DNA of 55,985 bases from Gemmatimonadales bacterium (GCA_007695195.1 REEG01000243.1:1-55985), one strand, 5' to 3'. Numbered from the stretch's first letter, positions 20,030 to 24,257 are shown. Program-made: numbers and translations. The notes: generated from the letters alone by a model not told the origin.

Positions 20030-20518
20030 GTGACGGTTGAACCAGGCGCAGGCGTCTTCCGGGAGGTGATGGGGTGCTTTGCCACCGGGGTGGCGGTGGT
20101 CGCCGGAATGGGAGCCGACGGTGAACCGCGGGGCTTTACGGCCAACGCGGTGACATCGGTTTCCCTGGATCCGCTCCTGATCCTCATCTCCGTCGGACGG
20201 TCCTCCTCATCGCTACCCGCTCTTCTGGATGCGGAAGCGTTCGCCGTGTCCTTTCTGCGGGCCCGGGATCGTGAGGTGGCGACCCGTTTCGCCGTGGGCG
20301 ATCGAAGGAGCCGCTTCTCCCAGCTTCCCTGGCGAAGGGAGGTCACGGGGTCTCCGGTCCTGGAAGATGCCCTCGCCTGGCTGGACTGCTCCCTGTGGAA
20401 GGTGGTGGAAGCCGGCGACCACCAGGTCCTCTTCGGGAAGGTGGAAGCCTGCGGTCTGGGTGAGGCCGGCGAGCCACTTCTCTACTATCGTGGCGGATTC
20501 GGGGTCCTGGGTACATGA
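20030..20518 (+). CDS. Flavin reductase family protein
   Basis: 162-residue FMN-binding split-barrel protein. GCFATGVAVVAGMGADGEPRG, TANAVTSVSLDPLLILISVG and AVSFLRA are the usual blocks of the flavin reductase (HpaC/RutF-like) family, which uses NAD(P)H to supply reduced flavin to a partner oxygenase. No partner oxygenase is adjacent. The GTG start has a good ribosome binding site. Its stop overlaps the next ATG by 4 bases (ATGA), which makes it the first gene of a coupled three-gene operon with the membrane protein and the Mre11/Rad50-like hybrid. Whether they work together is unknown. Confidence 0.9.
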   Translation: MTVEPGAGVFREVMGCFATGVAVVAGMGADGEPRGFTANAVTSVSLDPLLILISVGRSSSSLPALLDAEAFAVSFLRARDREVATRFAVGDRRSRFSQLPWRREVTGSPVLEDALAWLDCSLWKVVEAGDHQVLFGKVEACGLGEAGEPLLYYRGGFGVLGT

Positions 20519-21978
20519 GCCCTGGGTCGTGGGGGCGGTCGCTTCCCGCCTTTGCGGTAGGGGGGTGTCTGGCCGTGACCGCAGTGGTGTCGGCCGGGCT
20601 TCTCCTCTACGGGGGCCCCGGACTGGTGTCGGCCATGACCGTGGTCCTGGCGGCCCAACTCGCCGCACTGGGTGCCGGTGTGTCGTGGGGAGGGGTGATT
20701 CCCGGCCTCCCCTACCCGGAGGTGGTCCGGCGTCGGTGGCTTCTCCTCCTGGTCGCGGTGGGGTCGGCTGCGGTCTTCTCCGGTCTGTGGGAGTTGACGG
20801 GAGGCTTCGGCGCCCGTGGCCCGACCCAGGGGCTGGGCCTCGCCATCCTGGGCGCCTTCCCCCTCTTCGCCGGAGGGGCGCTTCTGGCGACGCTTTCTCG
20901 CTTTCCCGGAGGCACGGCTCCCCGCTCCCCCGCCGCCGCCGCTCTCCTGGGAGCGGCCGTGGGGGTGGTGCTCCTGGGCTGGTTCCTCTTCCCCCTTCTC
21001 CGGTCCACCACGGCGCTCCTCCTGCTGACCCTGGTGACCCTCTCCCTGGCGGCCCTGTCCCAGGGACGCAGCCTGGAGGGCGGGGTGTGGATCGAAGGAG
21101 ATGGCGGGCGTGGCTCAAGCACTGCGGGGCCGCGAGGTGTGACCCTGGAAGTCTGGCGCTCCGGTGCGGAAGAGGTGGCACAGGTGGCGGTGGGTTCATG
21201 GGGAATCGCACTGGTGGCCGATGAGGCCGGAGCGCCGCTCCTGCAGGTGGATCGGGCTCTGGGGGAGGGCCTGTCCCGTTGGGCCGGCAGTGGCGGCCGC
21301 GCCCTCTTCCTGGGCCCTGGACGCCTTCCAGCCGCACGGGCCATGCTGGGAGAGGGCGACGGGTGGAGCATCACGGTGTTGGCGGGGGAGGCGGCCCCGT
21401 ACCTCTCCCAGCTCCTTCCCGACGCCGTGGGCCAGGGCGCCGGGGACGTGACCATTCTGGGAGCCTCGGCCCGTGAGGCGGTGGCCCGCAGCCCCGCCCA
21501 CCTCCCTCCGGCCTCCTTCGATCTGGTGGTGGTGGACACCCTGGCCCTGGCGCCCACGCCCGCCGCGCTGGATCTGCCTCCCGGGGCCCTCCTCCGCCTG
21601 CGCCAGACGCTTCGGCCCGGAGGCACCCTCATCGTGGCACCGCTCCAGGATGGTGGGGGAGCCGGCGACCTCATGGAACGCATCGGTCGACAGGCGGCGA
21701 CCCACTTCGCCCACGCCTCCCTGTACGTGGCCGGTCGTCCCGGCTCGGCGGACCCCGAGCACGGCCATGGCATCCCCGTCCCGGAGGCACGGCGGGCCGA
21801 CTGGGCCCGTATGCACCCCGGGACCCGGGGGAGGAGCGCCATTCTGGTGGCCTCCACGCGCGCGGCCACGTCGTGGCCCGACGAGGTGCTCGGGTACCTG
21901 CGTGTGGTGATGGATGGAGGCGGGGTGCCGCCGGCCCCCTCCAACGTGGCCACACCCATGGCCTCGGAGACCCTGTGA
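20515..21978 (+). CDS. Membrane protein with a degenerate spermidine-synthase-like C-terminal domain
   Basis: 487 residues. About six hydrophobic helices occupy residues 10-190 (for example WLLLLVAVGSAAVFSGLW and LLGAAVGVVLLGWFLF). A soluble Rossmann-like domain at about 205-465 follows. It has RALFLGPGRLPAARAML where SpeE-type enzymes bind nucleotide, ITVLAGE in place of the usual acidic strand end, and FDLVVVDTLAL as motif post-II. This matches membrane-anchored polyamine-synthase-like proteins, but the glycine-rich loop is weak, so activity is doubtful. It is coupled to the genes on both sides: an ATGA overlap upstream, and its TGA overlaps the next GTG. The function is unknown. Confidence 0.7.
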   Translation: MSPGSWGRSLPAFAVGGCLAVTAVVSAGLLLYGGPGLVSAMTVVLAAQLAALGAGVSWGGVIPGLPYPEVVRRRWLLLLVAVGSAAVFSGLWELTGGFGARGPTQGLGLAILGAFPLFAGGALLATLSRFPGGTAPRSPAAAALLGAAVGVVLLGWFLFPLLRSTTALLLLTLVTLSLAALSQGRSLEGGVWIEGDGGRGSSTAGPRGVTLEVWRSGAEEVAQVAVGSWGIALVADEAGAPLLQVDRALGEGLSRWAGSGGRALFLGPGRLPAARAMLGEGDGWSITVLAGEAAPYLSQLLPDAVGQGAGDVTILGASAREAVARSPAHLPPASFDLVVVDTLALAPTPAALDLPPGALLRLRQTLRPGGTLIVAPLQDGGGAGDLMERIGRQAATHFAHASLYVAGRPGSADPEHGHGIPVPEARRADWARMHPGTRGRSAILVASTRAATSWPDEVLGYLRVVMDGGGVPPAPSNVATPMASETL

Positions 21979-24257
21979 ATCGCGTTCTGGCCCACCTCTC
22001 CGACCTCCACCTGGGATTTCGGGCCTTTCCGGCTCGCGACCGCGGCTGGAATCTGCGAGAACGCGATGTGGCCGCCGTCTTTCAGAGGGCCCTGGACGAC
22101 GTGGTTCGCCTGAATCCCAGGCTCCTCCTCCTGACCGGCGATCTCTTCCATCGACCGGATCCCCCGGCGACGGCGTTTCTGACCCTCACCCGGGGACTCC
22201 GTACCCTGCAGTCCAGGGTTCCGGGCGTGACGATCCTGGCCATCGCAGGGGAGCGGGACACCCCGCTGGCCCTGGGCGATCCGGGACCCGTTGCCGTCCT
22301 CGACGTCATGCCCGGCGTCCACGCCGCCTCGGGCGCGCCCCGGGCCGTGCGCCTCGACGACGGGCGCATCCACGCCCTGCTCGTGCCCTTCGCCGGTGTC
22401 CGGGGGGGAGCCCTTCCCGAGCTGCGCCCGGATCCGGAGGCCGAGTTGAACCTCCTCCTCATTCGTGCCCGGAACGTCCCATCTCCCACACCCCTCGAAC
22501 TGGATCCGACGGAGTGGGACTATGTGGCGGTGGGGGGCGACCACCTGTCGTGGAGTCGGGACGATCACATCCGATGTCCCGGCTCGCTGGAGAGAGTCGG
22601 CTGGGATCCATGGTCCGAGGCCACGGAAGAGAAAGGGTTTCTGACCTGGGATCTGGATCGCCGCCACGCCGACTTCGTTCCCGTGCCCACCCGGGCGCTG
22701 GTGGATCTGGCTCCGGTGCGGGTCGCCCCGGGCACATCCCGGGACGGGACCCGGCGACTTCGCCATCTGGTGGAAGGGATACCCGGGGGGGTGGACGGGA
22801 AGCTGGTGCGGATCCGGCTCCGGGGAGACATCCCCCTGCCGGAAGATGGCGTCGAAGGTGCCTTCCTGGAGGGCCTTCGTCGGAAAGCCGCTCATCTGGA
22901 GGTGGAGTGGGGCCCCGATCTGGGAGACCGTCCTCCGCCCGGTCCCATCCACGGCCATGAACTTCTCCTTCCCACCGGAACGGGAGGCCCGCGTCCCGTG
23001 GGGCCGGGGATCCACCTGGTTGCGCTTCCCGAGGGAGCGCCGGACCGCGAGCTCCCCGATGGGCTTCGGCGTATCCTGGACGATCAGGCCACGGCCCACA
23101 CCGGAGAGGCATCCGAGTTGAAACTCCTGCGGCTCCTCCTCCAGGGCGGCACACCGCAGATCCTTCTGGAAGAGGGTGTCGCGTGCCTGGATGACCTGGG
23201 GCGCCTCGAGGTGGACGACGCAGAACACTCGGTGCCGGAGTTGGTGTCTCCCGAACCGGCACCGGATGGCGCTCGGCCGTCCATGGATGGGGACGCCCCG
23301 ATTCTCCAGGAGCTCCGGGGCCGACGGGAAGACATGGTTGAGGCGGAGGGGGAGGTGGAGGCCCGGACCCTGGAGTGGGCCCGGGATCGACAGGAGGCCG
23401 AGAGCCGGCTCCAGGCCTACCGCGACCAGGCCATGGAACTCCGGCGTCGACTCCGGGAGTTGAGGAACGACGATGCGGTATGCCCCACCTGCGACAAGAC
23501 ATTGGGAGCGTCACGCCCGGCTCTGGTCGAGAAGCTTCGGGACGAATGGGAGATGGTGGTGCAGGACGGGAAGTGGTGGAAGCGTCGGCGGGAGCAGCTG
23601 GAGGATCGCCCCGAGGAGCTCAGGGCGCTGGAGGCCGAGGCCCTCCGACTCCGGGTCGAACTCACGGAGCTGGAATCGCGGGGGCCGGGAACGGGCGGCG
23701 GTCCGCCCGGCGATGAACTTCGGTCCGAGCCGGGAGAAGATGACGCATGGCTTCACCATCGTGAAGCGGGCCAGGTATGCCGCGTCGTGCTGCAGGCGGC
23801 CTCCAGCGGTCTTCGGCGCTGGTCCGAAGGGCGCCTTCTGGGACTCTCGCTCCTGGCGGACGGCGAGGTGGGTGTCATGGACCGGGGCGGCGCACGCATC
23901 CCCTTCGCCGGCGAGATCCCCGGCATCTCCCTGTGCCTGCAGCTGGCTCTGGCCCGGTTGGCGGTGGGGCACACCACCCTGGCTCCCCGGGTCCTCGTGC
24001 TCAGGGGACTGGATTCCCGAGGGGTCGATCCACTCCTGCCGCTCCTGACGGAACTGGGTCGGCAGGTGCCCCACATCCTGATCCTGGTTCCGGGCGACGC
24101 CGCCCTTCCGGGGGATGGTCGAGTGGCCGGCATCTTCCTTCTCCGGACGGGACCGCTCGGATCCGAGTCCGATGCCTCGCCTCTCCTGACCCCCATTCGG
24201 AAGGCGTGTCCGCCGCTGGGTACGCGGCTCGAGGCCGTGGACCCCGAACGACACTGA
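21975..24257 (+). CDS. Mre11/SbcD-like domain fused to a zinc-hook coiled coil and a degenerate Rad50/SbcC C-lobe
   Basis: 760 residues in three parts. Residues 1-240 follow Mre11/SbcD: SDLHLG (D10, H12), TGDLFHRPDPP (D56), and a YVAVGGDH region that leads into PGSLERVGW and EKGFLTWDLD. Residues about 441-570 are charged coiled coil around a canonical zinc hook, CPTC at 503-506. Residues 600-705 resemble the C-terminal ATPase lobe of Rad50/SbcC: AGEIPGISLCLQLALARL in place of the signature motif, then RVLVLRGLDSRGVDPLLPLL in place of Walker B and D-loop. No Walker A is present. Several metal ligands and the Walker B acids are missing, so the protein may be non-catalytic. GTG 21975 overlaps the previous stop (GTGA). 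Confidence 0.78.
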   Translation: MNRVLAHLSDLHLGFRAFPARDRGWNLRERDVAAVFQRALDDVVRLNPRLLLLTGDLFHRPDPPATAFLTLTRGLRTLQSRVPGVTILAIAGERDTPLALGDPGPVAVLDVMPGVHAASGAPRAVRLDDGRIHALLVPFAGVRGGALPELRPDPEAELNLLLIRARNVPSPTPLELDPTEWDYVAVGGDHLSWSRDDHIRCPGSLERVGWDPWSEATEEKGFLTWDLDRRHADFVPVPTRALVDLAPVRVAPGTSRDGTRRLRHLVEGIPGGVDGKLVRIRLRGDIPLPEDGVEGAFLEGLRRKAAHLEVEWGPDLGDRPPPGPIHGHELLLPTGTGGPRPVGPGIHLVALPEGAPDRELPDGLRRILDDQATAHTGEASELKLLRLLLQGGTPQILLEEGVACLDDLGRLEVDDAEHSVPELVSPEPAPDGARPSMDGDAPILQELRGRREDMVEAEGEVEARTLEWARDRQEAESRLQAYRDQAMELRRRLRELRNDDAVCPTCDKTLGASRPALVEKLRDEWEMVVQDGKWWKRRREQLEDRPEELRALEAEALRLRVELTELESRGPGTGGGPPGDELRSEPGEDDAWLHHREAGQVCRVVLQAASSGLRRWSEGRLLGLSLLADGEVGVMDRGGARIPFAGEIPGISLCLQLALARLAVGHTTLAPRVLVLRGLDSRGVDPLLPLLTELGRQVPHILILVPGDAALPGDGRVAGIFLLRTGPLGSESDASPLLTPIRKACPPLGTRLEAVDPERH

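Follow-up and report, generated by a model that had tools for sequence, protein, structure and literature searches.

An Mre11–Rad50 fusion protein that keeps its zinc hook and appears to have lost both active sites

Mre11–Rad50, which repairs DNA breaks, has been studied as a machine defined by its nuclease and its ATPase. In a 55,985-nucleotide stretch of DNA from a Gemmatimonadales bacterium (GCA_007695195.1 REEG01000243.1:1-55985; the window), one gene encodes an Mre11-like domain together with parts of Rad50. A preliminary description of the locus, made from its sequence, offered two meanings: a scaffold that dimerizes through the hook, or half of a split Rad50. The hook-dimerized scaffold is the better supported of the two.

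Architecture of the fusion protein

The frame runs for 760 codons without interruption. Its start codon, GTG, shares the sequence GTGA (21975-21978) with the stop of the gene before it, and a GGAGA lies shortly ahead; a Pfam search with the upstream gene gave no match. The product consists, in this order, of an Mre11 fold with capping domain (residues 1–313), a coiled-coil hairpin with a CPTC motif (503–506) and a Rad50 C-lobe (about 590–720). The expected folds are present both in an AlphaFold2 monomer model, calculated from the window protein and 44 orthologues, and in a second model of residues 318–735 (pLDDT 82.7). This three-domain architecture is real. The survey of related genomes proposed in the preliminary description finds matches in 43 of 57 relatives and in 98 of the 121 genomes of the family, and orthologues throughout the family mean that the architecture is neither a chance nor an assembly artefact. 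An assembly chimera was rejected, as the arrangement recurs in dozens of separately assembled genomes, among them G026 and G030, which are near-closed. The best 80 named loci belong to Gemmatimonadota, many of them titled Gemmatimonadales or Longimicrobiales, apart from one titled Gammaproteobacteria. The family with the converted protein, which in most cases is a single chain, is one of soil and sediment bacteria.

Table 1 Features of the fusion gene and its upstream neighbour, in window coordinates.
Feature	Coordinates	Strand	Evidence
Upstream membrane and spermidine-synthase-like gene (context)	20515..21978	+	4-bp overlap with fusion gene; named by eye
Whole gene, fused Mre11–Rad50 (760 aa), predicted catalytically dead	21975..24257	+	Open frame; orthologues in 98/121 family genomes; AlphaFold2 mean pLDDT 84.9
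Mre11-like phosphoesterase and capping domain, residues 1-313	21975..22913	+	Foldseek to Mre11 structures, E 3.2e-16; NCBIfam Mre11/SbcD
Motif I HLSDLHLG (D10, H12), metal-site 1 ligands kept	21993..22016	+	D 78/79, H 77/79 in family
Motif II GDLFH (D56), kept	22137..22151	+	D 76/79 in family
Motif III, GNHD to GERD (E93, R94)	22245..22265	+	Asn in 0/79; Arg for the catalytic His in 77/79
Motif V, GHxH to GGDH (G188, H190)	22524..22547	+	First His 5/79, second His 74/79
Collapsed Rad50 N-lobe stub, residues ~330-407	22962..23195	+	Lies between Mre11 and hook; relatives show intermediates; hhalign of stub against intact N-lobe, P 7e-4
Walker A strand and loop remnant (GIHLVALPEGAPDREL), no GK[ST]	23007..23054	+	Alignment to GLTGIIGPNGAGKST in intact relatives
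Coiled-coil helix 1, residues 437-495	23283..23459	+	AlphaFold2, pLDDT mostly >85
Zinc hook CPTC, residues 503-506	23481..23492	+	Cys pair in 79/79 relatives; 49/49 in unconditioned fused alignment
Coiled-coil helix 2, residues 511-569, with conserved VVQDGxWWKRRREQLE block (23556-23612)	23505..23681	+	AlphaFold2
Degenerate Rad50 C-lobe, residues 590-722	23742..24140	+	hhalign 8.7e-13 against intact C-lobe; Foldseek to Rad50 heads
Former ABC signature (ISGGEED to PFAGEIPG)	23901..23951	+	Alignment with intact relatives
Former Walker B and D-loop (LLILDEVFGSLD to VLVLRGLDSRG)	23988..24023	+	Alignment with intact relatives

An Mre11-like N-terminus had been proposed for residues 1-240. NCBIfam profiles detect it (Mre11 8.5e-11, SbcD 4e-6), both far under their curated cut-offs and covering just the first ~130 residues, and archaeal Mre11 chains match it at 1.6e-7 in a PDB sequence search. 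The Foldseek match to Mre11 crystal structures takes in the capping domain. The assignment stands, with a wider extent: the Mre11 part runs to residue ~313. The short coiled coil with CPTC at 503-506 is present as described and is formed by two helices, although the Pfam zinc hook profile scores just E 0.05, under its cut-off. The conserved block in helix 2 is common to the fusion proteins and their intact relatives.

The Rad50 C-lobe, placed at residues 600-705, was likewise borne out. The structure-prediction check proposed for residues 590–710 finds a Rad50-like fold: Foldseek matched the model of residues 318–735 to LmuB, Rad50 and SMC heads (2e-5 to 1e-3). It also hit two isolated chains of the Rad50 C-lobe, 1us8_B and 1f2t_B, at E 0.004 and a target TM of about 0.5. 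The N-lobe had been described as missing with its Walker A. Walker A is indeed absent, but the lobe is not wholly gone: residues ~330-407 are its collapsed stub and no unrelated linker. Aligned with hhalign, the profile of the stub falls exactly on the Walker A of the intact N-lobe. Several family members have a second gene with an open frame of just ~370–580 codons and a decayed N-lobe at its start, such as VRITRLTGLRVAGLPPLEGELGEGLVALVGSPDEASEVRRAL in locus L063 against MRLISLRLRNFRQHADTRIEFRPGLTGIIGPNGAGKSTILEAI in L082.

Active sites, hook and constraint

Of the elements of the two-metal nuclease site (DxH, GD, GNHD, H, GHxH), the fusion protein has DxH, GD and the last His; GNHD and the first His of GHxH are missing. 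The catalytic GNHD is G-x-R-D in 77/79 family sequences, and 13 of 14 sequences from the sister families still have Asn-His. The usual metal-2 positions are gone or variable (Asn in 0/79, first GHxH His in 5/79, third His in 47/79). The metal-1 ligands D, H, D and H are present in 78, 77, 76 and 74 of the 79, a retained set equivalent to D8, H10, D49 and H208, the metal 1 ligands of Pyrococcus Mre11. In E. coli SbcD, exchange of the residue equivalent to the catalytic His (H84Q) gives a nuclease-deficient protein that has been used in DNA-binding and ATPase assays (PMC6265447). These substitutions suggest that the fusion protein has lost nuclease activity. Loss of the Mre11 active site had no place in the preliminary description.

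The main rival to a scaffold is a changed enzyme, in which the metal-1 site (D10, H12, D56, H190) and the Arg that replaces the catalytic His constitute a different single-metal phosphoesterase and the hook merely dimerizes. The near-complete retention of the four ligands fits such an enzyme, and so does the uniformity of the His-to-Arg exchange, which looks selected and not random. However, enzymes of the Mre11 phosphoesterase fold normally need two metals, the metal-2 positions have not been kept, and a single retained metal site can be structural. We consider a changed enzyme unlikely; the retained site may serve the structure of the protein, or else a different reaction with a single metal.

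In the Rad50 part, Walker A, signature and Walker B were found in 0/79 family sequences examined, the LLILDE of intact relatives having become VLVLRG in the C-lobe. Judged from these motifs, its ATPase has probably been lost too. In the split-Rad50 reading, the C-lobe would form a working ATPase in trans with an N-lobe encoded elsewhere. This agrees with the kept fold of the C-lobe but not with the absence of signature and Walker B from that lobe in 79/79 sequences, nor with the decay of the N-lobe in cis, between Mre11 and hook, among relatives. No lone N-lobe was recognized among the AAA_23 matches over cut-off in the window's own genome, hits that were not annotated one by one. Because the C-lobe motifs are lost and the N-lobe is decaying in cis, a split Rad50 is unsupported and, in our estimation, extremely improbable.

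The hook has fared differently. Its Cys pair is found in all 79 relatives and in all sequences of a 49-sequence fused alignment that was built without conditioning on the hook cysteines. The residues between the cysteines vary (CPTC, CGGC, CRSC, CSVC, CANC), and any other cysteine is shared by at most 18 of the 49. According to published work, the Rad50 hook dimerizes constitutively, as a module for which an SMC hinge can be substituted (PMC6969161). The fusion protein is predicted to bind zinc and dimerize through its hook.

In intact relatives the C-lobe has the highest median pairwise identity (76%), followed by the N-lobe (72%), Mre11 (64%) and the hook region (54%); in the putatively dead clade the order changes to hook (51%), Mre11 (46%), C-lobe (26%) and stub (20%). 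The constraint is inverted: the hook is the most conserved part in the latter and the least conserved in the former. Among unsaturated close pairs, distant pairs having been set aside as saturated, dN/dS is 0.04 to 0.20 in most and 0.35 in one; of the parts, Mre11 usually has the lowest value and the stub the highest.

These values bear on the idea of a functionless, decaying pseudogene, surplus to canonical SbcCD elsewhere. The loss of both active sites could be read that way, as could the lack of the gene in some genera and the canonical SbcCD that the window's genome encodes on contig C262 (hook CAVC). Against this, open frames of 700-900 codons persist in dozens of genera, dN/dS is low in most close pairs, the hook cysteines are invariant, and most carrier genomes in the family are without canonical SbcD, so that the gene is not simply surplus. 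Purifying selection and the conserved hook therefore argue against a pseudogene, a reading we find scarcely tenable.

Canonical SbcD occurs in 7 of 57 genomes, and two of these, the family genomes G012 and G015, are without the fusion protein. Two candidate generalizations were rejected on this basis: loss of activity is not simply explained by a canonical SbcCD backup that releases constraint, and a hook that pairs with canonical SbcC is ruled out as a general mechanism. A YhaO/YhaN-like pair is also encoded in the window's genome, on contig C152, and the fusion protein could be a regulatory subunit that acts on this pair and not directly on DNA. Many family genomes without canonical SbcCD do have another SbcD-like match, in some cases, as on C152, near a ~1000-aa SbcC/SMC-like frame. 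However, genetic linkage is absent, and the YhaN-like frame of the window's genome is without CxxC; hook-to-hook pairing with it is therefore impossible. We regard such a regulatory role as improbable.

Descent and relation to known systems

The two sister families in Longimicrobiales (Gemmatimonadota) have two adjacent genes at the same syntenic spot. The first encodes an SbcD-like protein of ~385 aa in which GNHD and GHYH are intact, the second a compact ~815-aa Rad50 whose Walker A (GPNGAGKST), hook (CPTC), signature (ISGGEED) and Walker B (LLILDE) are all present. Fused gene and intact pair share the order rpoD-rsgA-flavin reductase-MR-trpE, and the common neighbourhood (rpoD, rsgA, flavin reductase, trpE) therefore makes them positional orthologues. 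In a FastTree phylogeny the putatively dead sequences fall into a single group, with the intact ones on the opposite side (SH-like support 0.926). The fused or split state changes at least seven times on the tree as scored, or about six times without L166, which is interrupted by a run of N; the Mre11–Rad50 fusion arose several times in the family. Genome G052 of a sister family (locus L085) encodes a nuclease-dead Mre11 (GDRD, GHHP) next to an intact Rad50, which suggests that the nuclease may have been the first to be lost. Vertical descent from an intact two-gene pair, followed by loss of both active sites, is very probable. A viral or plasmid origin, which has been put forward for fusions described in 2011, was rejected on the conserved synteny and the lack of viral relatives; a search of viral contigs found no related locus.

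The fusion protein resembles SbcCD/Mre11–Rad50 (SbcD PF00149/TIGR00619, SbcC/Rad50) in its Mre11 fold, hook and C-lobe. It differs in being one chain with a collapsed N-lobe, in having no Walker A, signature or Walker B, and in the loss of GNHD and the first GHxH His. The domain order had been thought to belong to no described family. As to the order itself this does not hold, since fusions with Mre11 first were reported in 2011 in Mimivirus (R555), some eukaryotes, bacteria and plasmids, those of Deferribacter and Clostridium kluyveri among them (PMC3175470). Like the window protein, these have Mre11 followed by Rad50 in a single polypeptide. R555 retains the ATPase motifs, and the fusions of Anaerostipes and Bacillus phage 0305phi8-36 were reported to be without one P-loop segment (PMC3175470). 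In contrast to R555, the window protein has no SbcC-type ATPase motifs, and where the 2011 fusions are sporadic and linked to viruses or plasmids, those of this family are chromosomal, vertically inherited and arose in place, with both active sites apparently lost family-wide.

Lamassu LmuB, the top Foldseek match of the Rad50 part, is likewise compact and hook-bearing. An LmuB model matches an intact relative at 3e-32, and LmuB matches to the fusion are weak and lie in the hook region. Unlike LmuB, the window protein has no working ATPase motifs and sits in a housekeeping neighbourhood (rpoD, rsgA, flavin reductase, trpE), in which neither LmuA nor LmuC was seen beside the fusion gene. Membership of a defence island was rejected on the conserved neighbours and the weak LmuB matches. 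YhaO/YhaN-type nuclease–SMC pairs also combine an SbcD-like with an SMC-like protein, but these are separate genes with intact motifs, and the copy in the window's genome has no CxxC hook.

In the literature covered, which is incomplete, we found no description of a pseudo-nuclease Mre11 or a hook-only Rad50, nor of an intact chromosomal pair turned, across a whole family and with vertical inheritance, into a fusion that has lost both active sites and keeps its hook. The Mre11–Rad50 fusion itself was already known, and the new part is the lineage-wide double loss with hook retention.

Proposed working and significance

We think it probable, though by no means assured, that the protein is what remains of an Mre11–Rad50, catalytically dead and independent of ATP, and that it is kept as a zinc-hook-dimerized bridging scaffold; the bridging function is the uncertain part of this best explanation. 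The ancestor would have been a complete two-gene pair at the chromosomal spot it occupies in the sister families today. In the window's family the nuclease site and the ATPase would both have been lost, the Rad50 N-lobe would have shrunk in place to a stub, and the two genes would have been joined in many genera. Selection keeps the zinc hook and the ~120-residue coiled-coil hairpin that bears it, along with the Mre11 core and capping domain. Two chains would meet hook to hook through one zinc ion, each contributing a CxxC, to give a short rod, constitutive and independent of ATP, that bears an Mre11-like head at both ends, and these heads may hold DNA or a partner without cutting. As N-lobe, signature and Walker B are gone, ATP-driven head closure is not to be expected.

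Two observations run against the scaffold reading. The metal-1 ligands are kept at 94-99%, which a pure scaffold does not strictly need. Whole genera of the family (g12, g15) are without the gene, which is hence dispensable somewhere.

The wider proposal, that a bacterial family has made an ATP-free, nuclease-free zinc-hook tether with a housekeeping role from its Mre11–Rad50 pair, is one we put forward tentatively. The family seems to have carried out a natural experiment in which both active sites were removed and the hook was kept. Its intermediates can be found in sequenced genomes: the intact pair, the dead nuclease with intact ATPase, the dead two-gene form and the dead fusion. The ~760-residue protein offers a natural minimal construct for the study of ATP-independent tethering. 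An 'SbcD' or 'Mre11' profile match in these genomes does not equal a working nuclease. That the clasp is kept while the cutting and ATP-burning parts seem lost suggests that the clasp has a job of its own. If the tether proposal is true, a hook with an Mre11 head would be selectable without either enzymatic activity.

A sister-family Mre11-Rad50 pair and the canonical SbcCD

The Mre11 encoded at L085, a relative's locus in genome G052, has lost its catalytic residues, and the adjoining Rad50 retains its ATPase motifs. Judged from these motifs, the pair is nuclease-dead and ATPase-intact, the sole such combination found among the sister families. The canonical SbcCD pair of the window's own genome (G000) was not found in four searched genus mates, and reflects either a horizontal gain or a mis-binned contig.

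Features discussed in this section
Feature	Location	Strand	Remarks
Mre11 gene	L085, 5915-7075	(-)	GDRD, GHHP
Rad50 gene	L085, 3502-5907	(-)	Walker A, signature, Walker B
Canonical SbcCD pair	G000 contig C262 (L091)		13-kb contig
TMEM260-like (O-mannosyltransferase-like) gene	L117, 7355-9691	(-)	
TMEM260-like (O-mannosyltransferase-like) gene	L155, 8487-10880	(-)	
Membrane + spermidine-synthase-like protein gene	window 20515-21978	(+)	no Pfam match
Hook-proximal block VVQDGKWWKRRREQLEDRP	window 23556-23612		

Neighbours of the fused gene and its relatives

Many relatives carry a TMEM260-like gene between the Mre11-Rad50 locus and trpE; the window has none there. The membrane and spermidine-synthase-like gene recurs immediately upstream of the fused gene, frequently overlapping it, and the role of its product may be relevant to the fusion protein. 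An orthologue of Gemmatimonadota type also occurs at L101, in a record titled Gammaproteobacteria isolate Ww582, whose title or binning is probably erroneous.

The hook-proximal block

Strong conservation extends past the zinc hook to this block in dead and intact relatives alike, which is atypical of a Rad50 coiled coil. The block is perhaps a second interaction site.
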